Below, piece after piece: positions 6,320-52,198 of a stretch of DNA of 64,000 nucleotides (positions are counted from its first letter, which is position 1; each line of letters begins with the position of its first letter). The notes under the pieces were generated by a model. It searched no databases. It saw nothing but the letters and a program-made list of their open reading frames with translations, and had not been told where the DNA came from. The position numbers and the translations under genes were made by a program. Source of the stretch: a virus; IMG/VR virus record IMGVR_UViG_3300032092_000015, positions 1-64,000 of that record, one strand, 5' to 3'.

Positions 6320-6829
6320 ATGGCATTTCGTAAAAAATATCCAGAAATCGTTCGAACTGGTGGACCGTATCCTTCTAATAGGTTTGGTATCATACTTAAA
6401 AATCTGTCAAGGCTTCAGAGAAGATTCTTAGCCGATCATCCGATTTTAAGAGAAAGGGTACAAGATGATCAGTTTGCTCAAATTATTCTAGAAATTGCAA
6501 ACCATTCAGTACAACCATTTAAGTTTAAAGATCGTATGTATTACGACTGGTCAACTGGAAGTGTTGTAGAGAAAGAAGTCTTATTAGATAATTACAACTC
6601 AATCCCATGGGTATGTGCTGTCAGTGGTAAGCCTATCACTTCTAGAACAGATGATTTTAGCCTAGAAAACTTTGTTCATCCAGAATACCATGACATTTTA
6701 AAGGCTCCAATGGTCGACAGCCGAATTCTTAAATCTTCGGTTGAATTTCGCAAATATGTAAAAAAGCTCCTGTTGAATGAACAACAAGAGCTTCTTAAAT
6801 TAGCTAAGAAAAATTCTAAAGTTAATTAA
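6320..6829 (+). CDS. Plus-strand protein of unknown function
   Basis: The only gene on the plus strand that I accept; no minus-strand frame covers it. 169 residues from ATG 6320. An ATG at 6281 would add 13 residues but would place the gp44 promoter inside this gene, and 6320 has the A-rich leader typical of its neighbours. The protein is basic, with a helical N-terminus (K-K-Y-P-E-I-V-R) and a W-V-C-A-V-S-G-K-P segment near the middle. No family recognised. It diverges from gp44 and its stop overlaps the stop of the convergent gene 6826-8130. Confidence 0.75.
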   Translation: MAFRKKYPEIVRTGGPYPSNRFGIILKNLSRLQRRFLADHPILRERVQDDQFAQIILEIANHSVQPFKFKDRMYYDWSTGSVVEKEVLLDNYNSIPWVCAVSGKPITSRTDDFSLENFVHPEYHDILKAPMVDSRILKSSVEFRKYVKKLLLNEQQELLKLAKKNSKVN

Positions 6830-8255: not shown

Positions 8256-9737
8256 TTATGCTAAGTTTAATAGGTTAGCAAATGCAGTACCGTCTGCTTT
8301 AGTAACACTGAACTTAACGTATTGAGTTTCAGGGTGGAAACCAGCTTCAACTAGAGCGAATCTAGATTTAACCGCAATTTTAGGAGCCATAGTTCCTTCA
8401 GCGATAGTTTGTACTGATTCAGCCATTAAGTAAGGCATGAAAACTAATCCAGGACCATTACCATCACCTTTTCTACCTACTAATACGTGATTGTAGTTCC
8501 AAGCCCATTTAGGGTTAGTGTAAACTTGTACACCAGCTACTGAACCTACTGGGTAGATTGCACCTGCAGCTTGAGATACTGTATTAGCAAATGGATTTGG
8601 TACGAAACCAGCAACAGCTTGAAGAACTGTAGCAACTTGAGGACCTACAACTGCAAAGTTACCTGCACCTCTACGACCACGGTTAGCGATCAAGTTAGCA
8701 GCAGCTAAAATACCAGTTAAGATTTTTCTGTGCTCAGAACCTTCAGTTTGACCACCTGTGAAAGATGCAGCTGCAACTAATTTTACGTTTAATGCGCCTG
8801 CAGCGAATTCACCAGCAGCAACCGCTCTAGTTAAGTTAGTAGTACCTAAAGTAGCGATGTTATTGATGATTAAGTCGTTGATGTTTTGAGTTAACTCGTT
8901 AACAAGTACTGCTTCAACTTGAGCAACAGCGTCAACGCCGAATTGCTTAAGATCTTGTACCTGCTCTCTTGTTACTGCAGCAGCAACTTGGAAAGTCTTA
9001 GCTTCAACAGCTTTGCTGAATAAAGATAGACCCATGATTTTTTCGTTAGTTTGCTCACCAACACCTCTTGTGAAAGGATCACCGTTAGCGTCTCCAGAGA
9101 AGCTAGGGATGTGATCTTCTAAAGCTTTTACTAATTCTACAGTTACTGAACCAGAAGTTACAGTAAATAGATCAGCAACAGTTCCAGCAGTTGAAGTTAC
9201 GAAAGCTTCACCAGCGTCATTGATTTTGTAGATGTTTTTACCATCGATACGAGATGTACCAATTAAAACAGCTCCAACTTGAGTACCTTGAGTACCTGAA
9301 TCAATATCAGCTAAAGCAAGACCTGTACCAGATGCTTTAACAATTGTAGGAGTAGTTGTACCAGCTAACTTACCACCTTCGTAAACGAAGTCTAAGTAAG
9401 ATAATAGACCCATAGGACCAGCCATAGGAATAACAGGTACTAAGTCTAAACCGATAGTTTGAGCAGCTACTTGCATTGCTAAAGGTAACAATGTAGGAGC
9501 TTTATCACCAGAACCTTTTGCAACACCATCAACGGCACCAGGAAGTGCAACAGCACCCATACCGAAAATGTTACCTGCAGAACCAAGTGACATCATATTT
9601 GCGTCTTCGTACAACTTGTGGTTGTGGCAGTACTCAGACATCCAAGCTAGTTTAGAAGCATCATTGATACCAGTAGCAGATTCGATGATCGGTGACCATG
9701 TCTCTCTGATTTCAGCTTCATTAATTAAATTTGCCAT
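8256..9737 (-). CDS. gp23: Major capsid protein, gp23-like
   Basis: 493 residues (T4 521). HK97-fold shell protein of the head. Matching segments are T-W-S-P-I-I-E near the start, G-N-F-A-V-V-G-P (about 365), and the C-terminal run H-V-L-V-G-R-K-G, F-M-P-Y-L-M and K-S-R-F-A-L-V, equivalent to T4 V-G-Y-K-G, Y-A-P-Y-V-A and K-T-R-Y-G-I. L-Y-E at 42-44 is a possible prohead protease cut, where T4 removes 65 residues. Codon use is noticeably more even and GC-richer than neighbours, as expected for a very highly expressed gene. Own promoter with an 80-base leader and own terminator. Confidence 0.95.
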   Translation of the reverse strand: MANLINEAEIRETWSPIIESATGINDASKLAWMSEYCHNHKLYEDANMMSLGSAGNIFGMGAVALPGAVDGVAKGSGDKAPTLLPLAMQVAAQTIGLDLVPVIPMAGPMGLLSYLDFVYEGGKLAGTTTPTIVKASGTGLALADIDSGTQGTQVGAVLIGTSRIDGKNIYKINDAGEAFVTSTAGTVADLFTVTSGSVTVELVKALEDHIPSFSGDANGDPFTRGVGEQTNEKIMGLSLFSKAVEAKTFQVAAAVTREQVQDLKQFGVDAVAQVEAVLVNELTQNINDLIINNIATLGTTNLTRAVAAGEFAAGALNVKLVAAASFTGGQTEGSEHRKILTGILAAANLIANRGRRGAGNFAVVGPQVATVLQAVAGFVPNPFANTVSQAAGAIYPVGSVAGVQVYTNPKWAWNYNHVLVGRKGDGNGPGLVFMPYLMAESVQTIAEGTMAPKIAVKSRFALVEAGFHPETQYVKFSVTKADGTAFANLLNLA

Positions 9738-9867: not shown

Positions 9868-11265
9868 TTACTTTTTGAATCTTTTTGCAAATTCTTCTTT
9901 CATACCATCTACGTTGTATGGTAATTTAGAAACTTTTTCTTCAGCTTTAGCAGATTCATTAACTACTTCAATTTTTTCCATTACTGGAGCAGTTTCTCTT
10001 AAATCTCTTGTTTGCCAGAAGTTTCTTACTTGATATTCAGTTTCTAATTTATGATATTTAGACTGGGCAAGTAATTGATTCTTTTTGCTTTCAGATAATT
10101 TATTCCATGTTTCTCTATATTCAGCAGGCATAGCTTTGATTACCATTGGTTCGTTTTCAACTGGAGCTCCAGCTACTGCATTATTCCATAATGCATAGAT
10201 TTGAGATTCAGTTAAGAAACCTTTACCTTCAACAGCTTTGGTAATTTTTGCTTTTGCTTCATCAGTTAAAGCATTGAATTCTTCAACTTTTGATTCAGAA
10301 ATAAATTTAAAGAAGTTTGGAGTTGTTGCAGGTTTTGCAGTTGCTTTTTCAACTAAAATTTGTAATTTCTCAGTGATTGCTTTCTTATAAGCATCCATTC
10401 TATCAACTTCTTCAGTTACTTCTTTACCAATATTTTCGCCTTCTGCTTCAGAATCTTTAATATCTTTTTCTAATTCTTTAGAATCATCTTCAGCTCTGTC
10501 TTCAGCTTTAGCATATTTAGTGCCTTCGCCATCTACAACTGGAGGTGTAGTATCTTTTAATTCTGTAGATTTAAGATCTTCAGCGTGTGTGCCAGTTTCG
10601 CCAGCAGCTTCAGTTACTTCTTTACCAATATTTTCGCCTTCTGCTTCAGAATCTTTAAGATCTTTTTCTAATTCTTTAGCTGTATCTTCGATAGCATCTT
10701 CACCCGTTGGTTGTTTTTTGCCATCAAATTCTACTTTTGGAGTTTTGTCATCAGACATTTTCTTAATTTTTTCAGCAGGTAAACCAGCTTCTTCTCCATC
10801 AGCTTCAACTAATAAGTTTTTATTTACTGATTCAGCAATATATTCAGCATACTCAGTTACTTTTTCTAAACTTTCTTTTAAATAAGTAACATACTTAAGC
10901 ATATTATCATGAGATGTTGCACCTTCGTTAAATGCCTCAGCTAAATAGTTTGAGTATTCTTTTACTTGGTTTACTGATTCACCAATTTTTTCACTGTATT
11001 GAATAGATTGGTCTAATTTTTCAGCAACATGATCTCCGTGTTGAATAGACTCGTCTACTTTTTCAGCTAAATAATTGTTATATTCAATTACTGAATTCAT
11101 TTTTTCAGCTAAGTATGATGAATATTCTTTAAGATTTTCAACTTCTTTAGCAAAAGTACCTTCGTTCTTTTCCTTAAGTGATTCTTTAATACCCTTCATC
11201 TCTTCTGCTAAGTACTTAGAATATTTGTTAAAATCTTCTGTACTTACAAATCTAGATTGTTCCAT
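9868..11265 (-). other. gp22: Possible internal translation start giving scaffold alone
   Basis: Within the protease-scaffold frame an ATG at 11265 (M-E-Q-S-R-F) lies just after the protease domain and is preceded by AGAAGAAAACAAA, one of the few purine-rich leaders here. It would give a 465-residue protein corresponding to a free gp22 scaffold, as in the nested Nu3 scaffold of lambda. Inference; a processed fusion is the alternative. Confidence 0.4.
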
Positions 11266-11856
11266 TTTGTTTTCTTCTATGGTTTGTGTTTGGTTGTCTT
11301 CTATACTATTTATCTCATAAATTAGAATATCGCCTTCATCTTCAAAACCAAAAGCCTCATTTACTCTTTTTAATTCAGCATTAGCAAATCCAGGATCTGC
11401 AACTAAATCGTATGTAAATAATTGTTTGATTTTTACTTTGCCGTCTGATTCAACGACACCAGCTGCTCTAGATGAGATATGAAGAGGTACTCCAGCATCA
11501 ACTAATGCTTTTGCTTGTTTACCAGCATCAGTATCAAGTAGCCTAATTCTACCCATTACTTTTTTGCTTTCTTTGTCATAAGTTAATTCTTCAATAACGT
11601 GTGATACGTTTTTAAGAGAAATATCAAATGCTTGAGGGTGATCAAGTTCACCAAGTAATTTTGATGAACCTATTTTAGCCTGTAGAGCTTCGATTTGAGG
11701 AAGGTATTCGCTTTCAGTATAGATTCTGTTATTTCTATTCTTAACACCAATCTCACCAAAACAGCCTTCTAGTACATAAGCACCAGAATCCTCTTGGTTG
11801 AAGGTCAACGTACTATTTGACCTTTCTAGAATAAGTAGTTTACTTTGTGGAGTCAT
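9868..11856 (-). CDS. gp21: Prohead protease gp21 fused to coiled-coil scaffold
   Basis: 662 residues from ATG 11856 (a GTG at 11868 would add four). Residues about 1-180 are the gp21 protease: V-L-E-G-C-F-G-E, L-L-G-E-L-D-H-P with the catalytic His, I-S-S-R-A-A-G with the catalytic Ser, and D-L-V-A-D-P. Residues about 200-360 are a coiled coil with a repeated Y-S-x-Y-L-A-E unit; residues 380-500 are acidic with a near-exact duplicated segment. T4 carries protease (gp21, 212 residues) and scaffold (gp22, 269) as adjacent separate genes, so this is a natural fusion. Position between core protein and gp23 is exactly the T4 place of 21-22. The C-terminal 160 residues contain F-I-S-E, Y-A-L-W and other helical segments. 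Confidence 0.88.
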   Translation of the reverse strand: MTPQSKLLILERSNSTLTFNQEDSGAYVLEGCFGEIGVKNRNNRIYTESEYLPQIEALQAKIGSSKLLGELDHPQAFDISLKNVSHVIEELTYDKESKKVMGRIRLLDTDAGKQAKALVDAGVPLHISSRAAGVVESDGKVKIKQLFTYDLVADPGFANAELKRVNEAFGFEDEGDILIYEINSIEDNQTQTIEENKMEQSRFVSTEDFNKYSKYLAEEMKGIKESLKEKNEGTFAKEVENLKEYSSYLAEKMNSVIEYNNYLAEKVDESIQHGDHVAEKLDQSIQYSEKIGESVNQVKEYSNYLAEAFNEGATSHDNMLKYVTYLKESLEKVTEYAEYIAESVNKNLLVEADGEEAGLPAEKIKKMSDDKTPKVEFDGKKQPTGEDAIEDTAKELEKDLKDSEAEGENIGKEVTEAAGETGTHAEDLKSTELKDTTPPVVDGEGTKYAKAEDRAEDDSKELEKDIKDSEAEGENIGKEVTEEVDRMDAYKKAITEKLQILVEKATAKPATTPNFFKFISESKVEEFNALTDEAKAKITKAVEGKGFLTESQIYALWNNAVAGAPVENEPMVIKAMPAEYRETWNKLSESKKNQLLAQSKYHKLETEYQVRNFWQTRDLRETAPVMEKIEVVNESAKAEEKVSKLPYNVDGMKEEFAKRFKK
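10411..10679 (-). repeat. 71-bp direct repeat within scaffold
   Basis: 10411-10481 and 10609-10679 are identical except for one base (offset 198). They encode two copies of the acidic segment K-E-L-E-K-D-(I/L)-K-D-S-E-A-E-G-E-N-I-G, in frame. A recent internal duplication. Confidence 0.9.
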
Positions 11857-11876
11857 ATTTATAGACACTATGTTTC

Positions 11877-11916: not shown

Positions 11917-12282
11917 TTAAAGCTCTTCTAATCCGGCTTCAGCGTCAGCAACATCGGCTTCTGCATCGGCACCGCCTTCTTCTTTTTTCTTATCGTCTTC
12001 TTGATTTTCTTTGTTCTCTTCTTCTTTCATTTCATTGTAAAAAGTCTTTAATTTAGACATTTCTTCAGTTTTGAAAGCGTCTTGACCATAAGTATTAAAG
12101 AAATAATCTTCAAACTCTTGTTCTGTTGCTGAGGCTGCAATTGCACCTAGTGTTTCAGCAGCTTTGATTACCGTGCCGTCTTCTAATGTAACATCTTCTA
12201 CATATACTTTAGAATCTTCTGCTTTTAAAGCTTCTGCTTCGGCAACGAATTCTTCAAATGTTTTAATAATTTTCATTTTCAT
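11917..12282 (-). CDS. Prohead core protein (gp67/gp68 position) with capsid-targeting-like N-terminus
   Basis: 121 residues. It begins with M-K-I-I-K-T-F-E-E-F-V-A-E-A, nearly the T4 capsid-targeting sequence (F-I-A-E, cut after Glu). The last third is strongly acidic with E/D/K runs, like T4 gp67. In T4 genes 67 and 68 lie between portal gene 20 and protease gene 21, exactly where this gene is. It has no promoter of its own and follows the portal gene by 18 bases. A core protein cleaved during head maturation is the likely role. Confidence 0.7.
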   Translation of the reverse strand: MKMKIIKTFEEFVAEAEALKAEDSKVYVEDVTLEDGTVIKAAETLGAIAASATEQEFEDYFFNTYGQDAFKTEEMSKLKTFYNEMKEEENKENQEDDKKKEEGGADAEADVADAEAGLEEL

Positions 12283-12300: not shown

Positions 12301-13914
12301 TTAGAATCCCATTCCTCCGCCACCGCCCATTGCAGCCATTGGATCTGCTGGTGGTTCTTCGGCTTTTTCAGCATCTTTTCTAGCTTTATACGCTTCGTTA
12401 GCTGCTTTATCGTCTGGGGAAAGTTTTAAGTATCTGTCAACCAAGAATTCTAAGTCAAAGTAATGTTCTTCTTCCATTGTCATTGGGTTAGCAATCATCA
12501 GGTCTTGGTTCATTTTAGAAATAAAGTCTAATCTCTTTTCCATTATTTCCATTTCTTTTAACTCAGCAAACATGTTCTCTTCATTGTATCTCAATGCAAT
12601 TTGAGTTTTGAATCCAGGATCATCAGAAAATTCTGGATATTTTAAACACATTTGTAAGTATAGTGGTTTTACAAGTATTTCTTGGAATGAGCTTCTTAAA
12701 CGATTAATAAATTTAGAGAATTTAATCTCATCACGAATCATACCATCTGCTGCCAAGTTAAAGTCTCCGCCTCCATCTTCATACATAAATCTATTAAATG
12801 GAATTTTAGAAACTTGTTTTAACTTATCAGAGAAATATTTAAGAGCTTCAGTGTCTGATAATTCTGGTCCATCTCCACCTAAAGTTTCAATTTCTGGTTG
12901 TTCACCATCTTTAGAAGGTAACCAATATTCTTTATTAAATTGAAGCATTGGTTTACCATTAGTTTTCAGCATACCTGAATCCCAATCGAAATCAACAACT
13001 TCTTTATAGTTATTCATTAATTGTGCTAACGATTGTTTAGCACGTGTTTTAGATTTACCTCCAACTGGAATAATGAATTTCATTCTATATGAGGCATTGG
13101 TAACAGCCCAAATAACTCTGGTGTGTTCCATAACTCTTAATAAGTTAAAAGCTCTAATTAATCTTTCAACATAAGAAACTCTAGAAGCTGTGGTAATTGA
13201 AGAATAAGAAATATAGATAATCTGCGCATCATATAATTTTCTTTCTTTGATTGGATCGTCTTTAAACTGGATCCAAACTTTTTTACCATCTTCTTTATTA
13301 TATGCTGGAACTAATGTAATAGGATCGATTTCTTTAAAACCGATAATCTCAGATTGTTCAGGGTTATAGATAATTTCAAATGCAAGATAACCATCAACTA
13401 ACCATTTGCGGAAATAGAACCACGCAGATTGATCTTGTGCAAAGCCAAAATATTGATAAATTTGACGGAATGCTTTATTTAGATAATTATTAACTTCCTC
13501 TGAAATCTCCATTCCAATAATTGATGGATTTGCAATAAAGTTTTTCTCATCATAAACAACCGCTTCATCACAAAGAATATCTAAAATATCTTCAATTTCA
13601 TCGTACATTGAGAATTGACGTAATTCATCTCTCTTTGTTTTATAATTCATGTCAAAGAACGGAATGTTCTTTCTCATGTTTGTATCTGCCATTGATAAAG
13701 CTGCAAATGCTCCATAAATGTCGTCATTATCGATACCCATCACATTCATTTGGCCGTAACCAAATTGATCTTCTGCTGGACCAATTGCTTGAGATTGTCG
13801 TAGTACTAAATCATCATAGTACATACCAAAAGAAGATAACCTTTTTAATCCGTCACTTAGATTAAAAGGTCTTCTGGCACTAAAGGGTCCATTTTTATTT
13901 ACAAATCCAGCCAT
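12301..13914 (-). CDS. gp20: Portal protein, gp20-like
   Basis: 537 residues (T4 524). Forms the dodecameric portal at the unique vertex, through which DNA is packaged and to which the neck attaches. Readable T4-like segments are the conserved helix with D-E-I-E-D-I-L-D-I-L-C-D-E-A-V (about 95-112), the stem region with R-V-M-E-H-T-R-V-I-W-A-V, and K-F-I-I-P-V-G-G. The C-terminus ends in a Gly/Met-rich tail (G-G-G-G-G-M-G-F). First gene of a head operon running into the core protein. Confidence 0.92.
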   Translation of the reverse strand: MAGFVNKNGPFSARRPFNLSDGLKRLSSFGMYYDDLVLRQSQAIGPAEDQFGYGQMNVMGIDNDDIYGAFAALSMADTNMRKNIPFFDMNYKTKRDELRQFSMYDEIEDILDILCDEAVVYDEKNFIANPSIIGMEISEEVNNYLNKAFRQIYQYFGFAQDQSAWFYFRKWLVDGYLAFEIIYNPEQSEIIGFKEIDPITLVPAYNKEDGKKVWIQFKDDPIKERKLYDAQIIYISYSSITTASRVSYVERLIRAFNLLRVMEHTRVIWAVTNASYRMKFIIPVGGKSKTRAKQSLAQLMNNYKEVVDFDWDSGMLKTNGKPMLQFNKEYWLPSKDGEQPEIETLGGDGPELSDTEALKYFSDKLKQVSKIPFNRFMYEDGGGDFNLAADGMIRDEIKFSKFINRLRSSFQEILVKPLYLQMCLKYPEFSDDPGFKTQIALRYNEENMFAELKEMEIMEKRLDFISKMNQDLMIANPMTMEEEHYFDLEFLVDRYLKLSPDDKAANEAYKARKDAEKAEEPPADPMAAMGGGGGMGF

Positions 13915-36471: not shown

Positions 36472-36927
36472 TTACTTTTGTTTGTTTAATTTTTCAAAAA
36501 CAAACTGCTCGAATGTTTTTACCGGTTTTTCATTCTTTTCGGCTTCAGCCTCTCTTTTCTTACGCTTTTTCTTCTCTTCTTCGTATTCATCTTCTGCCCA
36601 ACCTGCTCCCTTTGGAACATCTCCAGATCCATTTGCGCCAGTTCCTAAGTTTGGTAATTTAACTGCCCCCATACCAGCTCCTGGCATGAATACGCTTTGA
36701 GGTCCTCCAATATTAGTAGCAAAACCTAGTGCTTCTTTAACTTTTTCTGGAAGATCCTCATGTGGCGTTGATGCAAAGTCTTTAAGTTGTTTCAATGTCA
36801 TTCCATTGATTAAATCTTTAACTTTGTCTTGGTATTCTTTTGAAACATCAGAGATTAGCATATGACCGGCTTTAACAGCATACGCTACTCCCATTAGTCT
36901 TTGTTGTGTTTTACTTGTGCTCGGCAT
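36472..36927 (-). CDS. DUF3008-like protein with C-terminal capsid-targeting-like peptide
   Basis: 151 residues. The start M-P-S-T-S-K-T-Q-Q-R-L-M-G-V-A-Y-A-V-K with D-F-A-S-T-P-H-E-D-L-P matches the DUF3008 pattern found in many phages. A Gly/Pro-rich middle and a charged E/K helix follow. It ends V-K-T-F-E-Q-F-V-F-E-K-L-N, strikingly like the targeting peptide at the N-termini of its neighbours but at the C-terminus. Likely a virion or prohead protein. Confidence 0.7.
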   Translation of the reverse strand: MPSTSKTQQRLMGVAYAVKAGHMLISDVSKEYQDKVKDLINGMTLKQLKDFASTPHEDLPEKVKEALGFATNIGGPQSVFMPGAGMGAVKLPNLGTGANGSGDVPKGAGWAEDEYEEEKKKRKKREAEAEKNEKPVKTFEQFVFEKLNKQK

Positions 36928-36932
36928 AAAAA

Positions 36933-37478
36933 TTATTTAGCATCTATTGATAAGAAAACGCTGTTTCTAATTTCAATATTATTATAACCAACTTGCTTGT
37001 CCTGATCACCGACGATTGTAGTAGCTGATACGAAGAGTGCAGTGTTTGTCATTCCACCAAGCTTACGATCAAATTTGCTAGCGTCAACATCATCAGCAAA
37101 ACCAATATTAATTACAAAATCACTTTTTAAACTAACAAAAAGTTCTGTACCTGTTGGTGTATTTAATCTATTAACAACATCGGCAATCCATTGTGAATTT
37201 GATAAAGTTGCTGTAATATAAACTATAGCTTCTTTATCTTTTACAACTTTCATTACTTCTTGTTCAATGATTTTAGAACCATCGCGATCTGCCCAGTATG
37301 ACCAAATTTCATTTAGTTCAGCTAAAGTTGCATCAGCATCACCTTCATATTTAATCTTTTCTACTTCTTTCTTAAAGGCAAATAGAACTTTTCCAATAAT
37401 ACCTTTAGCTCCGTAGATTCCAGTTAACTGGTATGCTTTTTCAGCAATAAAGTTTTCGTATAGCTTAATGTGTTTCAT
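36933..37478 (-). CDS. Putative packaged head protein with capsid-targeting-like N-terminus (1)
   Basis: 181 residues. Begins M-K-H-I-K-L-Y-E-N-F-I-A-E-K, containing the exact F-I-A-E of T4 internal proteins, where gp21 cuts after Glu. The rest is an alpha/beta domain without recognised catalytic motifs. First of a run of similar genes with 5-base gaps. Confidence 0.7.
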   Translation of the reverse strand: MKHIKLYENFIAEKAYQLTGIYGAKGIIGKVLFAFKKEVEKIKYEGDADATLAELNEIWSYWADRDGSKIIEQEVMKVVKDKEAIVYITATLSNSQWIADVVNRLNTPTGTELFVSLKSDFVINIGFADDVDASKFDRKLGGMTNTALFVSATTIVGDQDKQVGYNNIEIRNSVFLSIDAK

Positions 37479-37484
37479 ATCTTA

Positions 37485-38054
37485 TTAATATTCGTTGGCA
37501 CGACACCATTCAACGGCATCTTTAACTGTTTTTAGTTCTTGGTCATATCCACTTAAATCGTAAATTCCGAGAATAGTTTTGCCATCGTCATTTAAATAGA
37601 ATGAAAATTGCTCTAGTTCTCCATCATGTCTAGGTGATTGCGCTTCTAATCCATTTTCAAATTTCACAACATGTGGAAACTCTTCATCTGCATCATATCC
37701 CCAAGATAATGATTCTACGTTTTTAGCCTTAGATAATTCTTTAAACAATTTTACTAAAATTGCTGGTTTTTCTGGCTTAGAAGCTTCATTAATAAAGTTT
37801 TCATTAGCAAAATCTGGTTTAACAATAACCCAATATGGGCCTCTGCTAGTACCAACAATTCTATTTTGATCAGTATCTAATGCTCCCATTTTCACATCAC
37901 CAATAACAGATTCTTTATTGTCTTTGATCCATTTTGAGCATGATGTTCCATTTTGAAATTCAATAACTGGATTTCCGTCAACAGTAACATCAAGTACTTT
38001 ATATTGTTTCCTAGCTTCATTAATGAAACTTTCAAATAGTTTTACGTGTTTCAT
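37485..38054 (-). CDS. Putative packaged head protein with capsid-targeting-like N-terminus (2)
   Basis: 189 residues from ATG 38054 (an in-frame TTG at 38063 is rejected because it overlaps the upstream stop). Begins M-K-H-V-K-L-F-E-S-F-I-N-E-A. A second copy, E-N-F-I-N-E-A, occurs near residue 90, dividing it into two halves of similar size that could be separated by the prohead protease. The C-terminal half contains E-D-E-L-type and W-G-Y-D-A-D-E segments. Function unknown. Confidence 0.7.
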   Translation of the reverse strand: MKHVKLFESFINEARKQYKVLDVTVDGNPVIEFQNGTSCSKWIKDNKESVIGDVKMGALDTDQNRIVGTSRGPYWVIVKPDFANENFINEASKPEKPAILVKLFKELSKAKNVESLSWGYDADEEFPHVVKFENGLEAQSPRHDGELEQFSFYLNDDGKTILGIYDLSGYDQELKTVKDAVEWCRANEY

Positions 38055-38056
38055 AT

Positions 38057-39385
38057 TTACCAAGCGTAATTTAAGTTGTCAATTTTCTTAATGTAATCTT
38101 GAAGATTTTTAGCATGTTGTTTCATACTACCTTCATAGTAAGATCCGGTATAACCAGCTGCTTTTTCTCTCTCTGCGTTAGTAACATCGCCAACATATCT
38201 GCCATACTCATCTAGAATGTTTCTCATTAAGTTTGCAGCATCACTCATTCTAACTTCTCTTCCTTTTGGATCTGTTCCGATAATAGGTTCATCATATCTT
38301 CCCTTTAAACCTTTAGCTAAACCATCTTTGATTTGATCTGCGATAGTTTCAATTGCTTTAGATACAAGAGAATCTAATGGTAATTCAGCAGCTTTAGTAG
38401 CTAAAATTTCATTATATCTTTTCAAGTTTTCAGCTTTGAAATCTTTGTCGTTTTGGAATGCGATTGCTCCTTTTTTTGCAGCTGCTCTTTCAGATTGTAT
38501 AGCTGCTGTAGAATATCTTGCTCTAAGAATTTCTAGGTCTAGACAATATGCTCTATCTGCAAGCTCAACAACTTGTTTTAAGCTTGAAATTCTAGAACCG
38601 TATGCAGAACTAGCAGAAGATTTTGCAATACCCGCTGAATCATCTCTTTTGGTTGTCTTTAAAATTCTATTGTTATTTCTGGCGCTATATCTACTTTGCC
38701 ATTCAACATTCATCCATTCATTTTGACCATCAGTGATAGCTAATAAACAGTTTGCTGGAATCGTTCTAGTTGACCAATCGTCTTGAGAATATGGATTCTC
38801 TTTTTCATTAGTTGTAAAATAGAAATATACAGCGCTTGCTCTTTTTTCTTTTTTAGCAGTTTCTGGATCCATTTCAATAATATCAATATCTTGAACTTTA
38901 TCAAGTGCAATTTTAGACATTGCATAGAATGCTTTTGGAAGATCTTTTGGCATTTTTGCGGCACCAAGTAAAATACTAGCAAGTTTTGCTGATGCAAATG
39001 CTTCATTTATAGTACCTTCATTTAAGTTCTCAACAAATTCTGAGAATGATTCAACTAATCTTTTCATTTCGAAACGAGGTTTATTTTGATTTTCTTTTTC
39101 TTGTTTAATCTGGTTATAAATTTTAAGACCATCTTTGCTTAAAGATATACCATCTTCGGAAACGTTGAAAAATCCAGCGTTTCTCTTTAGCCATCTTTTT
39201 TGGTCTTCTGAAACTTTAGAAAGAATAGCATTGAAATCTTCTTTAGAAATCTTACCATCTTTTACAGCTTCAATTACAGTATTTCGAATAGTAGCATGTT
39301 TTCCAACTGTCTTAGCTGGATGATTCTCAGTATACTGTCTTTTAATAGTAATTCTGGATTCATTTAAAAACTCTTCAAAATTCAT
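38057..39385 (-). CDS. Putative packaged head protein with two capsid-targeting-like peptides
   Basis: 442 residues. Begins M-N-F-E-E-F-L-N-E-S. A second cluster at about 107-131 reads M-K-R-L-V-E-S-F-S-E-F-V-E-N-L-N-E-G, then I-N-E-A, so residues 1-125 could be a removable pro-part with helices and the rest a mature domain. Residues 130-442 are helical and Ala/Lys-rich, with K-G-R-Y-D-E-P and D-A-A-N-L-M-R. No enzyme family recognised. Confidence 0.7.
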   Translation of the reverse strand: MNFEEFLNESRITIKRQYTENHPAKTVGKHATIRNTVIEAVKDGKISKEDFNAILSKVSEDQKRWLKRNAGFFNVSEDGISLSKDGLKIYNQIKQEKENQNKPRFEMKRLVESFSEFVENLNEGTINEAFASAKLASILLGAAKMPKDLPKAFYAMSKIALDKVQDIDIIEMDPETAKKEKRASAVYFYFTTNEKENPYSQDDWSTRTIPANCLLAITDGQNEWMNVEWQSRYSARNNNRILKTTKRDDSAGIAKSSASSAYGSRISSLKQVVELADRAYCLDLEILRARYSTAAIQSERAAAKKGAIAFQNDKDFKAENLKRYNEILATKAAELPLDSLVSKAIETIADQIKDGLAKGLKGRYDEPIIGTDPKGREVRMSDAANLMRNILDEYGRYVGDVTNAEREKAAGYTGSYYEGSMKQHAKNLQDYIKKIDNLNYAW

Positions 39386-39406
39386 AATCTTTAGTATTTT
39401 TATAAA

Positions 39407-39415
39407 CTATATATC
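39407..39415 (-). promoter_or_regulatory. Candidate late promoter before the packaged-protein operon
   Basis: GATATATAG on the minus strand, 22 bases before the ATG at 39385. It would serve the genes from 39385 down to about 36472. Confidence 0.5.
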
Positions 39416-39416
39416 A

Positions 39417-40862
39417 TTATTTCATTTTGAAACCTAGTTTACCATTACCTGGGTTTGTTGATGATACGTTCGGTGCTTCGAATGAAAGTTTTGCATTAGC
39501 ATCGCTAAATCCTTTTAAATAAAAATGAATCTGGTCTCTTTTAAGATCCACATCCATATATAATTGTTTAACATCTAATTTAGCAACGATGGTTCTTAGT
39601 GTGTTAATATAAGTATCTCCAACACCAAGTTTACCATTTAAAACATCAATAAGTTCTAAGCTTAATGAGTAACTAAATAAGCCAATATACTTTTTACCTT
39701 TATCTAGTTTGTCCCATTGAACTTTGTCAAATTTGTCAACTCCTCTACCAGAGGATTTAACCAATGGTTGAACGTAAGTTGTAAAGAATTCTTCTCTACC
39801 AAGCTCAGTCATTTTAGCTTGTATAAAACTTTCTAGAGATTTTTCATCTAATGGAACATTTCCAATCAATCCCTTTAACACAGAAATTGATGGCGTATTC
39901 ATAAATTCAGCGCCTTTAATATAACCATCGACTACTGAATTGTTTTCTATAATTTTAAATAAATCGTACAACTGAACTTCTGAAGTTTCAGTAAAATTTT
40001 CAGCTTTTAGATTTTTAATAATATTTGATAGGGTTGGGGCTGCTCCAGATTTATATTTTGAAGATATACCATATCCATCAATATAAAAATCTACTAGTGG
40101 ATTATTTCCAGAAGGAAATGATATTCCATGTTGAGTTGTTACCATATTTAATAGTAATGCAGCTCCTAGAACTTCACCAAAATCTTTACCGATTGTGTTT
40201 AGATCTGTTACACCAAGAGCATCAATTGCTTCTCTAACATTTTCATCATATCCGATAGTTTCAGAAAACGCTGAAATTGATAATGGATCTTTAAAATATG
40301 TTGAAGGTTTATGCATTGATATTAAATCATAAAGTTCGATTAAAAAACTTTGCATAAAGAGATTAGAGCTATACTTACTGTTAATTGCGCTTTTAACACT
40401 GTTTGATAAAACTGTAGAATTCATATCAGTGTCTTGTGGTAAATTAAGAGAAGTTGGAGTAAGTTCTTTAGATTTAATAGATCCTCTTGGTGGATTATTA
40501 TCAACAAATTTAATAACATCTCCGATTGAAACTTTTAAATCTTTTACATCTTCACCGAATGTTACGATGAAAGTTGTAAATTTACCTGAATTAGAACCAT
40601 TTGAATATTCTCCAGGTCCAGCAGTTACGATATCGAATTTTGATGCTCCTAATTTATTAAGAGCATCACTGATTGATTTTAGTGCGCTTTTAGAATCTCC
40701 ACCTAAATCAAATCTTAAATCTTTTCCACCATTCTTTGTATTAATTCTACCGGGTCCTAATAATTTCTGCATTGCCGGAAGTACTGTTCCTTCAATCGAT
40801 CTTGCTGCTTCATTTAATGCAAGTTGAAATCTTGCTCTAATATCTCCGTAAGTTTGTCCCAT
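39417..40862 (-). CDS. Large protein of the packaged-enzyme block, unknown
   Basis: 481 residues; not recognised. N-terminus F-Q-L-A-L-N-E-A could be a divergent processing site. Residues about 255-285 contain V-D-F-Y-I-D-G-Y-G-I-S-S-K-Y-K-S-G-A-A, a pattern of a Asp, strand, then S-x-K typical of some restriction-nuclease-like cores; this is only a hint. Overlaps the nucleotidyltransferase-NMNAT gene by one base, so it is probably functionally linked to it. Confidence 0.7.
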   Translation of the reverse strand: MGQTYGDIRARFQLALNEAARSIEGTVLPAMQKLLGPGRINTKNGGKDLRFDLGGDSKSALKSISDALNKLGASKFDIVTAGPGEYSNGSNSGKFTTFIVTFGEDVKDLKVSIGDVIKFVDNNPPRGSIKSKELTPTSLNLPQDTDMNSTVLSNSVKSAINSKYSSNLFMQSFLIELYDLISMHKPSTYFKDPLSISAFSETIGYDENVREAIDALGVTDLNTIGKDFGEVLGAALLLNMVTTQHGISFPSGNNPLVDFYIDGYGISSKYKSGAAPTLSNIIKNLKAENFTETSEVQLYDLFKIIENNSVVDGYIKGAEFMNTPSISVLKGLIGNVPLDEKSLESFIQAKMTELGREEFFTTYVQPLVKSSGRGVDKFDKVQWDKLDKGKKYIGLFSYSLSLELIDVLNGKLGVGDTYINTLRTIVAKLDVKQLYMDVDLKRDQIHFYLKGFSDANAKLSFEAPNVSSTNPGNGKLGFKMK

Positions 40863-42718
40863 TATATCTTATTTATAAATTGTTCAAATGTTAAAATATC
40901 TTCTTCAACTTGAATAGATTCCATAGCTGCAAAAGAAGCATCTAATTTCTCTTTTAAATCATTAAACATTCCGTGTAGAGAACGTGGAGTCATTTTATTA
41001 AACTCTTTTACATTACCATCGCTAAGTGCTTGTCTAACTTTGGTAGCTGAAATATCATCGTCTCCTCTTTGGATTTCATATAAGCCAAATTCAGGAAGTA
41101 CTCCAAGTTCTTGACGATATTTATCATTGTTAACCATATATCCATAAGCTTTCATACGGTCAGTTCCAGTGCCCCATAAAACAGGCTCATAATTAGGTCT
41201 AAGTTCATTAAACATAACATCGATTGCAGCAGAAGGAACAACAATAACTTCTTTTAAGAATCTGTATTCGCTCTGTACATTATTAAACATTTGAATTTGA
41301 GTTTCTACATCATAAGGTCTTTTAATAGCATCCTCTTTCTTAGCAGTTTTTGCCTTAACTAAGAATACAATAACTGGATATCCATTTTGCTTATTAAGTG
41401 TTTCTAATACTTTAACGTGACCTAGTGTAAATGGTTGAAATCTACCAACAAAAATATTTACTTTTTCGCGACCTTGTTCTGGATAATCGATCTTTAATGC
41501 TTCAGTAATTTTTTGGCTATTTGCAACTTTATGATGCATTATAAAATTATGAAAGTCAAATACTGCGTTTTCTTCAGTTGGTTCAACATAGATCTTTTGT
41601 TCAATTTTATCCACGATTTCATTAATTTGATTTAAAACCAACCCTGAAATAATAGTTGATTCCTTGGTTCTTTTCTTTCTAAAACTACCTAAAACTATTT
41701 TATACAATTCAGCAAGAACTGGATTTGAAATATAATCTAGCGTAGTTTCATTTTTAATATATGTTGTATTCAACTTAAATGACTCAATTGTTGCAAAATT
41801 AGCAGAATCAAAATTAGCACCAACATATTTAAATGCATTCTTAGAAAGATATTGATTGTAAATTGCTGAAGTTAACTCAATATATCGTAAATCCGGGTTT
41901 GTTTCGGTTAATTCAATTTCGTCTAAATTAAAACTATTCATATATTCTAATAAATCAACGATGGTGATCTGGTACATATGAGAAGACTCTCTATCGTCAT
42001 TTGATTCATTAAGTCTATCGAATGATTCTAATTTATAGGATTTTACTTTAGTTCCATCAATAAAAGAAACTATTAAACCATCAATTTCTTTATCTAAATT
42101 TTCATTTAATGTACTTTTAGTTAAAGATTGATTAAAAATATGATACGCTTCTCTTGTAAACGTATCTTTATTATATCGTTTATTAAATTCGCCTTCATTC
42201 ATTGAAAGTAATTTAATTAAACGATCTTTTTGTTCTGTGTGTAATATACCTTCAAAAATAACGGGTGGCTTTTGTACACCAAACATTCCTGCCCATTTAT
42301 TAAGAATAGCAGTATCGTTAATAACTTTTCTAGGTTTTCTATTCTCACCTAAAACCTGAATGTGTGTTAATATTAAATAGTTTGTAGGTAAAGTATCATA
42401 TTGATATGGAGAAGCTTCGGCTTCTGGAAGATATTCAAATCCAAATTTCCAATCAATTGGCATATTTTGCTTAACTTCATGTGAAATTGATTGAAAATAT
42501 TTAATGGCAGTTTCATATAAAGAAACCATGGTTCTATCGATTGGAGAAAGCTCTTCACTTGATCCGTTTTTATAGAACTCAAATCCATTTAAACTTCTTC
42601 TAACATATAAAGAAGGGGCTGCGATCTTTTCAGAGACAACAATTTTATCATTCAACATTGAGTTGAATTCATTAATATTTACCGATTGGTATAGATCTCT
42701 TAATTTTTGTAATGCCAT
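40862..42718 (-). CDS. RNA-ligase-like nucleotidyltransferase fused to NMNAT-like adenylyltransferase
   Basis: 618 residues. Domain 1 (about 1-240): motif I S-E-K-I-A-A-P-S-L-Y-V with K31 but with the usual D-G replaced by A-A; motif III F-G-F-E-Y-L; motif IV E-I-D-G-L-I-V; motif V V-K-S-Y-K-L-E. Domain 2 (after about 420): V-G-R-F-Q-P-F-T-L-G-H, the HxGH nucleotidyltransferase signature, and D-I-S-A-T-K-V-R near 565, as in nicotinamide or pantetheine adenylyltransferases. It ends L-T-F-E-Q-F-I-N-K-I, a C-terminal targeting-like peptide. Downstream of a second ligase-like gene by one base. A packaged nucleotide- or RNA-end-processing enzyme is inferred. Confidence 0.75.
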   Translation of the reverse strand: MALQKLRDLYQSVNINEFNSMLNDKIVVSEKIAAPSLYVRRSLNGFEFYKNGSSEELSPIDRTMVSLYETAIKYFQSISHEVKQNMPIDWKFGFEYLPEAEASPYQYDTLPTNYLILTHIQVLGENRKPRKVINDTAILNKWAGMFGVQKPPVIFEGILHTEQKDRLIKLLSMNEGEFNKRYNKDTFTREAYHIFNQSLTKSTLNENLDKEIDGLIVSFIDGTKVKSYKLESFDRLNESNDDRESSHMYQITIVDLLEYMNSFNLDEIELTETNPDLRYIELTSAIYNQYLSKNAFKYVGANFDSANFATIESFKLNTTYIKNETTLDYISNPVLAELYKIVLGSFRKKRTKESTIISGLVLNQINEIVDKIEQKIYVEPTEENAVFDFHNFIMHHKVANSQKITEALKIDYPEQGREKVNIFVGRFQPFTLGHVKVLETLNKQNGYPVIVFLVKAKTAKKEDAIKRPYDVETQIQMFNNVQSEYRFLKEVIVVPSAAIDVMFNELRPNYEPVLWGTGTDRMKAYGYMVNNDKYRQELGVLPEFGLYEIQRGDDDISATKVRQALSDGNVKEFNKMTPRSLHGMFNDLKEKLDASFAAMESIQVEEDILTFEQFINKI

Positions 42719-42719
42719 T

Positions 42720-44000
42720 TTATCTTCCGTATTTAATAATACCCATTAGCTGATTTATTGCAGCAAATGTACCAGTTAATTTATATAGTTTTCCTTTATA
42801 TTTAAACACCAAACCTTCTGATGGAACAATTGATTCGATGCCTCCAATTCTTTCTAAACGAGCTAATTCAGCTTCTACTTTAGAAATTTGAGAAAGGTCA
42901 CCATTTTTTTTAATTTTATCAGCTTCAGTTTTAATTTGATTATGAAGTCTCTGCATTTCTTGGTCTGGATTTGCCGCTAATAAGTTTGAAACGTTCTTTA
43001 AAACAACAGATCCTAATTCAAGGAAAATGTTTTCAAACGGCATGATGTTCTCTTTATACTTCTTTTTAGCATCAGTTTTTTCGAACTCTTGTAGTTTTTT
43101 ATATTCACTAGCTCCAATTTGTTTACTAACATCGCGCATATTGAGAGTTTTCTTGTCATCAAATGCCCAACGTTTAACCAAACCTTCTTTAGTAATGTCA
43201 TCTAAAGTTGGAAATGTTGAAGCAATTAATTCTCTCCACCACATTTCATGATACTTAGAAACCTCATCAGTATCTGCCAAACTATATCTTTTTTGAAGAT
43301 CTTCAATTTGCTTCATGAAATAAGACTTTTTCTCTTCAAAATTAACATTTTTACCAATTTGCAAATCTTGCGGAGGAATAATTTGAAATGTTTTTTGAAC
43401 ATCTGCTGTAACTTTATTAAGAGCTGCTTGAACTTTTCTAGCAACACTAGAATCAGATCCAATTTGATTACCATTACCATCAGTATGGACAATTCCATGG
43501 AATTGAATTACATCGCGATCATAATTAATTACATTTGAGTTACCTGAATAAATTAACTCCATATTCATAAATGAAGTTCCATTATTAAAGTCCTCTAAAT
43601 CAGCACCCTTTAATGAACCAAGTGCACTTGCTAGGTCTGATGCGGCATAAGTGAATGTATCTCTTACTCCAGCTGAAGGGTGATCCTTAAACATATCTGT
43701 GATTCCCTTTAAATCAATTGGATTCGCCATTTGACCTTTATTTCTAGCAAACAAAACTCTACCATCTTTTACCGTAACAAATAGATTCTGTCCATCTGTT
43801 TTTTCAGTCGGTGCCTCTTCAAAACTTAAATTACCTTGAAGCGCAGAATCAACTAAATGGCGTAAATCGCCAAATGTTAAATCATGATCGTCAAAAGGAT
43901 GCATCATATGCCCGGCTGCACCACCTTCCATTACTAATTCTGGATATTTGCTATTCCATTGTTCTAGTAAAAAGCTGTTAAATGTATGTAGTTTTTTCAT
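42720..44000 (-). CDS. Ligase-like nucleotidyltransferase with capsid-targeting-like N-terminus
   Basis: 426 residues from ATG 44000 (an in-frame TTG at 44006 is rejected). Begins M-K-K-L-H-T-F-N-S-F-L-L-E-Q, the packaged-protein peptide. Motif I E-K-T-D-G at 66-70 with catalytic K67, F-M-N-M-E-L-I-Y as motif III, and C-terminal E-G-L-V-F-K at 395-400 followed by Y-K-L-T-G as motifs IV and V. This is the covalent nucleotidyltransferase fold of RNA and DNA ligases and capping enzymes. A long helical insertion (about 210-370) separates the motifs. Substrate unknown. Confidence 0.75.
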   Translation of the reverse strand: MKKLHTFNSFLLEQWNSKYPELVMEGGAAGHMMHPFDDHDLTFGDLRHLVDSALQGNLSFEEAPTEKTDGQNLFVTVKDGRVLFARNKGQMANPIDLKGITDMFKDHPSAGVRDTFTYAASDLASALGSLKGADLEDFNNGTSFMNMELIYSGNSNVINYDRDVIQFHGIVHTDGNGNQIGSDSSVARKVQAALNKVTADVQKTFQIIPPQDLQIGKNVNFEEKKSYFMKQIEDLQKRYSLADTDEVSKYHEMWWRELIASTFPTLDDITKEGLVKRWAFDDKKTLNMRDVSKQIGASEYKKLQEFEKTDAKKKYKENIMPFENIFLELGSVVLKNVSNLLAANPDQEMQRLHNQIKTEADKIKKNGDLSQISKVEAELARLERIGGIESIVPSEGLVFKYKGKLYKLTGTFAAINQLMGIIKYGR

Positions 44001-44009
44001 AATCAAAAA

Positions 44010-44054: not shown

Positions 44055-46655
44055 TTATACCGTTTCCTGATTAATCATTGCGTGGCAAACGTTTACTGAG
44101 ATCCATTTAGCTTTATCAAAAAATTCTTTTGCTAATTTTTTAATTTTAGGCTCTTGGTTAGAAGGTAATTTATTCTCTTCGCCATCAGCTTCTTCATTCC
44201 ATGATTTAACTGCAATTTTCCAAATTGTATCAAAATCACGGCTTTTTTCATAATATTTTGAATTTCCTTGTCTGTCTATATGATCGTGATAATCTGCCCA
44301 ATACTGTACATCGATTCCTTCATTAGAAACTGATTCTCCAAGAGAACTTGTTAGAGTTCCAACGCATGCACCATAATCATCTCCACATTTCTTAAGAATA
44401 CCATCTACAACTTCTTGAGCTTTCTCAGCATCAAATTCTTCTCCAAATGCTTTTTGTAAAACATTAAATGCATATTCTTTAAATTCGTCATCTGATTTAA
44501 TATCAGCTTCAGAGATTAATGATTCATTTGCGAAAGATTCAGCTGCCATACCATAACATTCAGTAAATTCATCAATATCTAAGCCATAGTGGTCAACAAC
44601 TTCCATGATTTCATCTGGAAAATCCATTTCATCATTGCGCATTGATTTTCTAAGACCAGTTACTTTATCATAATTATCATATACGAATGAAGCAACATCC
44701 ATACATTCTGGATTATCTCCTAATTGAGAAATAATCCAATCTAAACCTTTAGCTTTTGCTTCATTAACTTCTGCTGATTCTTTAATACCAAGCTCTTTTA
44801 AAGATTTAACTTGCTCGCCTTTATCTTCTCCAGTTTCTTCGTCAGCATACCATAAAAGTCCTGCTTTAATTAATCTTCCATAGATTTCAGATGCAACTAA
44901 CTCAAATGGAAAAGAGTCTGATGAATTTTCCCATGTTGTAGCTACGTAATCTGGATCAATCCAACCAATACCTCTTTTAATAGATTTCTCCATATCGGCA
45001 TAGTCCATTTCAAATTGCTTTACAGCACCTTCATTAACTTCTAAAGATTCGTTTTTCTTTACATAATCTTGAAGATCTTTTACTTCGTCTTTTAATTCTT
45101 TTGGTATATTATTTGTGAATGTATTCCAATTAAAACTTGCTTTAACAATCATAAACAAAGGTAAGCCAGAATTTCTTTTACCGAATTCAGATCTTTCAAT
45201 CCAATCTAAATAATATTCAGCTAATTCTTTTGACATTTTAATACCTTCTGCTCTTGAAGTATTTCCTTTAATAATATCGTTAAGTAATCTCTTAGCCATG
45301 CCATGTGAACCTTCGTTGACTTCAACTGATTCCATTTTAGCATTTGCAATTACTTCTGCGATAGTTTCTAATAAATCTTCAGTTTTCTTTCTAACTGGAA
45401 TAAGATCCATGTCCACTAATTTATTAAGAACTTTGTGTGCAATGATTCTACCACCTTTAATAGAAACTACACCTTCAGTAACTACTGATTCTTCTACTTT
45501 ATAAGTTTTACCTTGGAATTCGAATTCGTCTTTACCTTCTTCTTTTGCCTTTCTAACCGCATCTCCAAAAGCATTTCCTTCTTCAAGTTCCTCGGCTTCT
45601 TCTACTTTATAAGTTTTACCTTGGAATTCGAATTCGTCTTTACCTTCTTCTTTTGCCTTTCTAACCGCATCTCCAAAAGCATTTCCTTCTTGAACTTCTT
45701 CATCATCTTCATTAACGGTCTTAGCACCATGTACTTTGTATGTTTTTCCGTTAAATTCAAAAGTTTTTTGACCTTTATTTCTTGCAGCAAAAAGAGCTCC
45801 AGTAAATGCATTTCCTTCAGAAACTGCTAATTCAAGATCTTTATCTTTACCAGCAACTGCATCGTTTAATTCAGCTTCTAAAGCTTTTTTCTTAGCAGTC
45901 ATTGCTTTTAATTCATCTAATAAAGCTGCTTTAGCATCGCCTTCGGCTGCTTTCCATTCTTGAGCTTTAGCTGCCATTTCAGCAGTAATTTTGCTCCAAT
46001 CATTTTGAATTTTATTAATTGAACGAGCTTCAAAAATATATGCTTCTTCGATGAATTCTTCTAGACCACTATCTTTTCCCCAGAAATCTTGAATCATTTT
46101 TTCAAGATCCTTCTTTTTACCAACATATTCAACTTCTGGATAGTTGGCTGCAGGACCATTCATATTTACGATTTTCCACTTAATACCCTTTTTCTTACAA
46201 AAATCAACTAGACCTTTTTCATTAGGCTCAATAGCATCTAGAGTAACTGTAGCTTCATATAAATCTGCTTGAACTTCTTCAGCATCATCAGCATCTTCTT
46301 TTTCAGGCTCTCCTAAATCTTTGATTTTACCTTCGATTTCTTCAGCGCGGTCTTCTTCAACTTTTTTAAGAACATCTTCAACTGCATCTTTTTCTTTACC
46401 CATCGCCATGATTTCTTTTTCGATTTCTTCAGCGCGGTCTTCATTAAAAATTTTTGCAACTAGTGCTCTTTTCTTTTCTTCGTCAAGTTCTGACATGTCT
46501 GAAATTTCTAACTCATCTAAGATAGCTGAAATTTTCTCAAGAGATTTAACTCTTTTACTTTTATTATCTTGTTCAGTCTTTACAGCATCCTGCTGTTTTT
46601 TCATTTCTGAAAAAGATTTAAATGATGAAATTCTGTTTAGTTCCATTTTATTCAT
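44055..46655 (-). CDS. Putative capsid polyprotein of short domains
   Basis: 866 residues. N-terminus F-K-S-F-S-E-M fits the targeting peptide loosely. After a charged 130-residue coiled coil the chain is a string of 35-90-residue domains, each starting right after a V/L/I-x-E-G or -A site: A-V-S-E-G, V-Q-E-G, L-E-E-G, V-T-E-G, V-N-E-G (twice), V-N-E-A, I-S-E-A and S-N-E-G. Three tandem copies begin G-N-A-F and end G-K-T-Y-K-V; two are identical at DNA level. Other domains include one with H-G-M-A-K-R-L-L and one with K-R-G-I-G-W-I-D-P-D-Y-V. Such sites suit the gp21-type protease. Own promoter and terminator. Confidence 0.75.
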   Translation of the reverse strand: MNKMELNRISSFKSFSEMKKQQDAVKTEQDNKSKRVKSLEKISAILDELEISDMSELDEEKKRALVAKIFNEDRAEEIEKEIMAMGKEKDAVEDVLKKVEEDRAEEIEGKIKDLGEPEKEDADDAEEVQADLYEATVTLDAIEPNEKGLVDFCKKKGIKWKIVNMNGPAANYPEVEYVGKKKDLEKMIQDFWGKDSGLEEFIEEAYIFEARSINKIQNDWSKITAEMAAKAQEWKAAEGDAKAALLDELKAMTAKKKALEAELNDAVAGKDKDLELAVSEGNAFTGALFAARNKGQKTFEFNGKTYKVHGAKTVNEDDEEVQEGNAFGDAVRKAKEEGKDEFEFQGKTYKVEEAEELEEGNAFGDAVRKAKEEGKDEFEFQGKTYKVEESVVTEGVVSIKGGRIIAHKVLNKLVDMDLIPVRKKTEDLLETIAEVIANAKMESVEVNEGSHGMAKRLLNDIIKGNTSRAEGIKMSKELAEYYLDWIERSEFGKRNSGLPLFMIVKASFNWNTFTNNIPKELKDEVKDLQDYVKKNESLEVNEGAVKQFEMDYADMEKSIKRGIGWIDPDYVATTWENSSDSFPFELVASEIYGRLIKAGLLWYADEETGEDKGEQVKSLKELGIKESAEVNEAKAKGLDWIISQLGDNPECMDVASFVYDNYDKVTGLRKSMRNDEMDFPDEIMEVVDHYGLDIDEFTECYGMAAESFANESLISEADIKSDDEFKEYAFNVLQKAFGEEFDAEKAQEVVDGILKKCGDDYGACVGTLTSSLGESVSNEGIDVQYWADYHDHIDRQGNSKYYEKSRDFDTIWKIAVKSWNEEADGEENKLPSNQEPKIKKLAKEFFDKAKWISVNVCHAMINQETV
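45489..45691 (-). repeat. Two identical 95-bp tandem repeats within polyprotein gene
   Basis: 45489-45583 and 45597-45691 are identical (period 108 bases, 36 residues). Each encodes a G-N-A-F-G-D-A-V-R-K domain. A third diverged protein copy (G-N-A-F-T-G-A-L) follows upstream in the gene at about 45710-45815. Confidence 0.95.
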
Positions 46656-51829: not shown

Positions 51830-52198
51830 TTAGATTCTTTTACCAAGAGCAGCACCTAACGCAGCACCAACTAATCTTGAGGTTAATAAATCATACATTA
51901 ATCCAGATTGGATTCCTAATACTTTACAAACAGTTTTACCAATTGAAGAACCAAGTGCAAAACCAGTTAGACCGCCAATAATAGATCCTAATAAACCTTC
52001 ATTGGTTAGTTCCTCGTTGAATCTTTCAAAATCATAAGATCCATCTTCATTTTTATATGAAGCAACAAATTGTTCTAGAGCAGCTTCTACTTTAGCTTCT
52101 AATTCAGGAGTCCATTCTGAAACAAGTGACTCTTGTAGGAGTTGAATATCTTGTTCTGTTACTTGCTGTTCTGATAAATATTGTTCAAATGTTTTCAT
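51830..52198 (-). CDS. Capsid-targeted glycine-zipper protein
   Basis: 122 residues. Begins M-K-T-F-E-Q-Y-L-S-E-Q, close to T4 M-K-T-Y-Q-E-F-I-A-E-A. Residues 12-85 are acidic and helical; a second site L-T-N-E-G near 86-90 precedes a hydrophobic glycine-zipper half (L-L-G-S-I-I-G-G-L-T-G-F-A-L-G and G-A-A-L-G-A-A-L-G-K) that would insert in or oligomerise at a membrane. Cleavage there would free the hydrophobic part in the mature head. An ejected pore or membrane peptide is a reasonable inference. Confidence 0.7.
   Translation of the reverse strand: MKTFEQYLSEQQVTEQDIQLLQESLVSEWTPELEAKVEAALEQFVASYKNEDGSYDFERFNEELTNEGLLGSIIGGLTGFALGSSIGKTVCKVLGIQSGLMYDLLTSRLVGAALGAALGKRI

Follow-up and report, generated by a model that had tools for sequence, protein, structure and literature searches.

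The window, the 64,000-nucleotide stretch of DNA analysed here, is part of a 95,302-base virus record. Profile searches assigned it to a T4-superfamily phage by its portal, gp21-gp22 fusion and gp23 genes:

8256..9737, minus strand: major capsid protein gp23 (PF07068, E=6.8e-43)
9868..11868, minus strand: gp21-like prohead protease fused to a gp22-like scaffold (PF03420 Peptidase_S77, E=6.4e-10; phrog_207 head maturation protease, E=1.3e-41)
12301..13914, minus strand: portal protein gp20 (PF07230, E=2.3e-72)

By gp23 and gp21, the closest annotated or cultured relatives were huge phages, Prevotella Lak phages, Tenacibaculum PTm1 and phage PAU, while a megablast search of phage records with this region returned zero matches. 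Shine-Dalgarno sequences were not enriched at the called starts (7.7% vs. a background of 8.9%). Because of these nearest relatives and the absence of a Shine-Dalgarno excess, the host is likely a member of the Bacteroidota.

A preliminary description of this DNA had singled out eight proteins that begin with the peptide F-x-x-(F/Y)-(I/L/V)-x-E, which it compared to the T4 internal proteins, and two that end with a similar peptide. The N-terminal tags of the record are the following:

6826..8130, minus strand: head-region protein, degenerate N-terminal tag FNSWYSNILE (8086-8115; homologue comparison)
11917..12282, minus strand: small acidic core-type protein, tag FEEFVAE (12238-12258; motif search)
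36933..37478, minus strand: N-tagged cargo, YENFIAE (37440-37460; tag retained in homologues)
37485..38063, minus strand: N-tagged cargo, FESFINE (38016-38036), with an internal FANENFINE|A (37785-37811; motif search)
38057..39385, minus strand: multi-module cargo, N-terminal tag FEEFLNE (39359-39379), internal tag FSEFVENLNEGTINE (39002-39046; alignment to the stand-alone gene L035:14686)
42720..44006, minus strand: N-tagged ligase-fold candidate, FNSFLLE (43962-43982; model pLDDT 82.9, RNA/DNA ligases best but weak)
44055..46655, minus strand: multi-module protein, degenerate N-terminal tag FKSFSE (46605-46622), 15 (L/I/V)xE(G/S/A) junctions
51830..52198, minus strand: glycine-zipper-like protein, tag FEQYLSE (52169-52189; strict tag in 35/46 homologues)
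L083:14452-14928 and 14962-15429: further tagged genes of the record, both outside the window
N-terminal tag peptide: MKHVKLFESFINE

The motif held strictly for five of the eight named N-termini and nearly for 36933, with Y in place of F; 6826 and 44055 did not match it. These five strict matches among the window ORFs compare with 0.067 expected and a maximum of 2 in 2000 shuffles (first 24 residues, 55 ORFs). The preliminary description had not noted the two tagged genes outside the window, the internal tags of 37485 and 38057, the repeated junctions of 44055 or the similar motif copies in the scaffold. In total, the record carries 8 clear N-terminal tags (the five strict ones, 36933 and the two L083 genes), 2 degenerate ones and 2 C-terminal tags. 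With T4 numbering, the window pattern is aromatic-4, aromatic-7, aliphatic-8, Glu-10, and both aromatics are found in the five strict and the one near N-terminal tags as well as in the two C-terminal ones. A homologue of 6826 (L112) starts ...LYESFLKE, containing the near-canonical YESFLKE, and homologues of 44055 retain FKSF, FEDF or FEQF at the N-terminus. The sequences behind the peptide proved unrelated, as proposed and as far as tested, since no Pfam or PHROG family is common to the tagged proteins of the window. Profile searches of Pfam and PDB gave no identification for 42720, 38057 or 39417; Foldseek matches of 42720 to RNA/DNA ligases were consistent but weak (best E 9e-3, TM about 0.2).

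The frequency of the tag was determined in 80 loci around relatives of 42720, comprising 1162 unique ORFs in 280 families. Results showed an N-terminal tag in 41 of the 280 family representatives, against 0.76 expected by shuffling, a roughly 50-fold excess, and the tagged families carry unrelated cargo. That the tags are chance matches to a loose pattern, as the position of 6826 and 44055 outside the motif could suggest, is refuted by both sets of shuffles, and we consider it to have practically no probability.

The T4 capsid-targeting sequence of IPI, IPII, IPIII and Alt was described by Mullaney and Black 1996, as cited in the review PMC9026906. In this sequence, MKTYQEFIAE, residues 4 and 7 act in targeting and residues 8 and 10 in gp21 processing, and Asp at position 10 stops cutting and leaves targeting unaffected (PMC9026906). 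IPII and IPIII both start MKTYQEFIAEA. The window phage shares with T4 the aromatic-x-x-aromatic-(I/L/V)-x-E arrangement at residues 4-10, the unrelated cargo behind it and a gp21-type protease, the cognate gene being present in the genome (PF03420, phrog_207; 9868-11868). It differs from T4 in that a partial genome has at least eight tagged genes, that tags also stand internally and at the C-terminus, and that the cargo includes enzymes and putative polyproteins.

Both C-terminal peptides of the preliminary description are present:

36472..36927, minus strand: DUF3008 protein (PF11450, E=9e-9; family comparison), C-terminal tag FEQFVFE (36493-36513)
39417..40862, minus strand: cargo candidate; in fusion proteins of L069, L048, L059 and L063, a homologous region follows an internal tag
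40862..42718, minus strand: NMNAT-type nucleotidyltransferase domain (about residues 420-600; PF01467, E=1.4e-7; solved NMNATs) with a C-terminal tag
40865..40891, minus strand: C-terminal tag TFEQFINKI (T 48/49, F 47/49, F 46/49 conserved)
40892..40927, minus strand: variable linker AMESIQVEEDIL, in which candidate cut sites occur (motif count in homologous linkers)

The C-terminus of 36472 (FEQFVFEKLNKQK) contains Glu-10, and 40862 ends TFEQFINKI, without Glu. We compared 49 full-length homologues of 40862 and found that 48 end in (L/M)TFEQFI or a close variant; T610, F611 and F614 were conserved in at least 90%, and the linker upstream of this island varied in length and sequence. At the DNA level, all four Thr codons were used and 29 spellings occurred among 48 tags. 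Because the codons vary synonymously, selection on the C-terminal tag acts at the protein level. Asn or Lys predominated at the equivalent of Glu-10, and Glu did not occur there (0/48), in contrast to the N-terminal tags, where 121 of 142 family members carry Glu. The linkers contain xxE|S/G/A sites: [AVILNT]xE[SGA] was present in 38 of the 48, where 14.4 were expected and 500 shuffles gave a maximum of 22. In L069, where fusion of a 40862-type protein with the following gene makes the tag internal, Glu is present again (LLTFNDFIFE|SARINEA). The C-terminal tag was absent from the NMNAT homologues in L020 and LR756500 (L087).

Two side observations concern these genes. In 39417-40862, the invariant D258, D262, S267 and K269 (VDFYIDGYGISSKYK) resemble a PD-(D/E)xK nuclease core, with no profile match. 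In Microcystis phage Mel-JY01, a single gene (L086:11243-13162), located a few kilobases away from that for terminase, fuses cytidyltransferase/NMNAT-type and 42720-type domains.

A third family (L271) behaves like that of 40862: eight of nine sequences end (I/V)QES...LFEQF(I/V)xK(D/A/S), and the ninth, which is 97% identical but longer, reads FEQFIGE|AKK and then continues. DUF3008 proteins across phages show either the tag followed by the stop codon or the tag, often preceded by Met, with varied cargo behind it. Among short DUF3008 proteins from cyanophage-like contigs, 11 of 13 end with the same core (by eye, accepting Leu for the first aromatic). The peptide is, as read from the sequences, present on at least eight unrelated proteins of the window phage and C-terminal in at least three protein families. 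Among family representatives alone, the C-terminal motif was not significantly frequent (3 vs. 1.2 expected in 280 families), and the case for C-terminal tags therefore rests on conservation within the three families and not on their number; the sequences within each family are kin, so that these counts are not independent. An apparent C-terminal tag in NAD-dependent epimerases (LSFKEFLLEQ) was set aside, since it probably represents an ordinary helix.

The N-terminal position of the T4 sequence is kept by the N-tagged proteins but not by 36472, 40862 and the L271 family, and the internal tags of 38057 and of the DUF3008 fusions likewise depart from it. The (I/L/V)-x-E at positions 8-10 is present in the N-terminal tags and in 36472, and absent from the C-terminal tags of the 40862 family, in which a candidate site lies upstream. 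One alternative is that only the N-terminal tags are genuine and the C-terminal and internal copies are functionless relics, left over from fusion to a tagged gene that lay downstream. The DUF3008 C-terminal tags do sit where other phages have the tag, often with Met, of a fused downstream cargo, and probably arose through fusion with and loss of the following cargo, or the reverse; in addition, the internal tags of the 38057 family are preceded by Met and an A-rich leader. A relic would decay, however, whereas TF--F is kept in 46-48 of 49 sequences with synonymous change next to a linker that is free to vary. Loss of Glu-10 is, moreover, specific to the C-terminal tags of two families, and the cyanophage-type short DUF3008 proteins share the terminal core. 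Thus, we regard relics as improbable, although they are the strongest of the alternatives.

Tags also occur inside multi-module proteins. The internal tag of 38057 is homologous to the N-terminus of the stand-alone gene L035:14686, and in the relatives of 38057 and 44055 modules are strung together in differing orders. One module (SINKIQxxW...) was found in 44055, in L023 and behind DUF3008 in L067 and L033, always directly after (V/I)NEA. The motif (L/I/V/M)(N/S/T/A)E(G/A/S) was enriched five- to six-fold in both families, and 68% of the module boundaries defined by alignment lay within 12 residues of [LIVMF]xE[SGA], compared to 31% at random. An internal Met followed by the tag occurs in 25 multi-module relatives, including 38057 of the window; none of the 25 Mets had a Shine-Dalgarno site, and the called starts lack enrichment as well, so this result speaks neither for nor against internal translation. 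No peptidase domain was matched in 44055 or 38057 by Pfam or PHROGs at E 0.1, and a model of the C-terminal domain of 38057 (pLDDT 80.5) gave no credible fold match.

The scaffold part of the protease-scaffold protein also contains sequences similar to the tag:

10294..10314, minus strand: tag-like FFKFISE (motif search, homologue comparison)
10831..11223, minus strand: scaffold repeats YSKYLAE ... YAEYIAE, with a core resembling the tag (motif counts)

In total, 8 copies of [FYH]xx[FYH][LIV]xE were counted in the scaffold part of 9868-11868, against 0.106 expected, several of them spaced in a 14-residue register, and the repeats are shared by 18 of 18 unique homologues, with 7-10 copies each. 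From this resemblance, the tag may be an imitation of the scaffold repeat. In T4 gp23, the similar FGSFLTE|A at residue 65 is the known end of the propeptide (cut position per PMC5694885). This overlap with a T4 cut site, together with the recurrence in the scaffold, would fit a peptide that is a recognition site of the prohead protease and carries no address. Against this, the C-terminal tags of 40862 and L271 retain both aromatics in the absence of the Glu that the protease requires, and in T4 targeting and processing map to separate residues (PMC9026906). We therefore consider a pure protease site very unlikely. A side observation in a relative is an extra tagged gene (MKHIKLFEQFINE) immediately after the scaffold gene (L105:8798-9142), which suggests mobile tagged cassettes.

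Evidence on virions comes from the cultured cyanophage S-SCSM1. In CsCl-purified particles of this phage, mass spectrometry detected 45 phage proteins, the NMNAT ORF91 being named among them, with the reservation of the authors that carry-over after purification is possible (PMC9602691). ORF91 starts MKSFLQFLKEA, and the NMNAT N-terminal core F/L-x-x-F-L-x-E was found in 47 of 47 cyanophage-type loci from viral contigs. Its domain is homologous to that of 40862 (BLASTP 7e-11). Because the tag of ORF91 is N-terminal and that of 40862 C-terminal, the two groups place the tag at opposite ends of a homologous enzyme domain; the available text of PMC9602691 does not mention a targeting peptide. Two genes downstream, ORF93 (DUF3008) has the C-terminus TFKEFLEYIE and carries the GenBank label 'virion protein', which we take to reflect the same experiment, the record holding 48 virion labels and the paper 45. 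Genome-wide, 6 of 12 loosely tagged CDS have a virion label, compared to 42 of 270 (Fisher p = 0.007); ORF30 (MKTFKQFMSE) is tagged and has no such label, and the majority of the virion proteins are untagged. Alternatively, the peptide, being short and potentially amphipathic, might be a helix for oligomerisation or membrane binding that has nothing to do with the head; a weak glycine-zipper match was also obtained for 51830. The residue-by-residue agreement with T4 targeting, the 41 families and the two cargo homologues listed as S-SCSM1 virion proteins argue against a helix of this type, which we judge slightly less probable still than a protease site without address.

Our best explanation of the whole, with a probability of roughly 0.77, is that the peptides are T4-type capsid-targeting sequences that can be used N-terminally, internally and C-terminally. 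The N-terminal part of this proposal is supported by the IPII/IPIII match, the gp21-family protease gene, the family excess and the reported S-SCSM1 NMNAT in virions. The C-terminal part is supported by the 48/49 conservation in the 40862 family, the two other families and the label on the C-tagged S-SCSM1 protein. Overall, the reading as a tag is well supported, and C-terminal use would be a variant of T4 capsid targeting that is new to the literature found. The novelty suggested in the preliminary description has to be narrowed, since the T4-type motif is unreported at a C-terminus in that literature but C-terminal propeptides removed by the prohead protease are already known in T4 Alt and gp21 and in SPN3US gp245, where the propeptide has 64 residues and a targeting role was proposed (PMC5694885, PMC7411985). 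These have in common with the window tags a C-terminal peptide and removal, here predicted, by the prohead protease; they differ in that a T4-type FxxF motif is unreported there and that they belong to the protease or to Alt itself and do not form a general cargo tag. In P1 DarB, the N-terminal 30 residues likewise suffice to send a reporter into the head, but the authors found no consensus among the Dar N-termini, which are not T4-type (PMC9024508). Polyvalent proteins are also multi-domain chains, thought to be packaged and split (PMC5512222), comparable to the 44055 and 38057 modules that recur in other arrangements; they are split by embedded peptidase domains (PMC5512222), whereas the junctions of 44055 and 38057 fit the prohead protease instead.

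The analysis shows the sequence pattern, its conservation, the protease gene and homologues in virions; for the window phage, we infer packaging, cleavage, head location, ejection and docking partner. Through the aromatics at T4 positions 4 and 7, the peptide would dock the cargo to the core of scaffold inside the prohead as this grows, and may do so by mimicking the repeated YxxYLAE units of the scaffold; the gp21-like protease would then cleave after (I/L/V)xE, and the cargo would remain in the head with the DNA and be ejected at infection. The tag would function at either end of a protein and also between fused modules. Tags before cargo usually have their own Glu-10 and would be cleaved behind the tag, whereas in two families the C-terminal tags lack it and have a candidate cut upstream, by which the tag could still be removed; the DUF3008 C-terminal tags of the window clade retain Glu-10, contrary to this polarity rule. 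Several cargo genes would encode polyproteins broken into modules by the protease. The fuller proposal of a position-independent loading code, in which the tag could stand anywhere, the side of the protease site would mark the cargo, whole polyproteins would enter as one chain and be cut in the prohead into separately injected proteins, and the tag would mimic the scaffold repeat, is tentative, and we would put it a little below even odds. The tag could serve as a predictor of hypothetical genes whose products are packaged and injected in uncultured T4-like and huge phages. C-terminal and internal tagging would extend the tools for packaging proteins with T4, and a concrete model of targeting is offered by the scaffold repeats. 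The NMNAT-type and ligase-like cargo are candidates for early host take-over or counter-defence.

Several minor observations were made alongside. In Sphingomonas phage PAU (L121, 10924-18608), about 10 genes around the portal, protease and scaffold have a different common N-terminal peptide, roughly MKT(L/I)(T/S)xL(Y/F)E, and two of them are annotated as internal capsid protein; in this cultured phage, the peptide has the appearance of an independent head tag. In the window, the product of 33230-34408 resembles, by eye only, a myo-inositol-phosphate synthase, unusual for a phage, and the DNA polymerase is seemingly split (23648-24844 and 28735-30144), with ribonucleotide reductase and clamp-like genes between. 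Finally, 58676-61375 encodes a large fibre-like protein with collagen-like repeats and, by appearance, a Hint/intein-like C-terminal end (CLLYGTKILMADG ... VANGIVTHNK).
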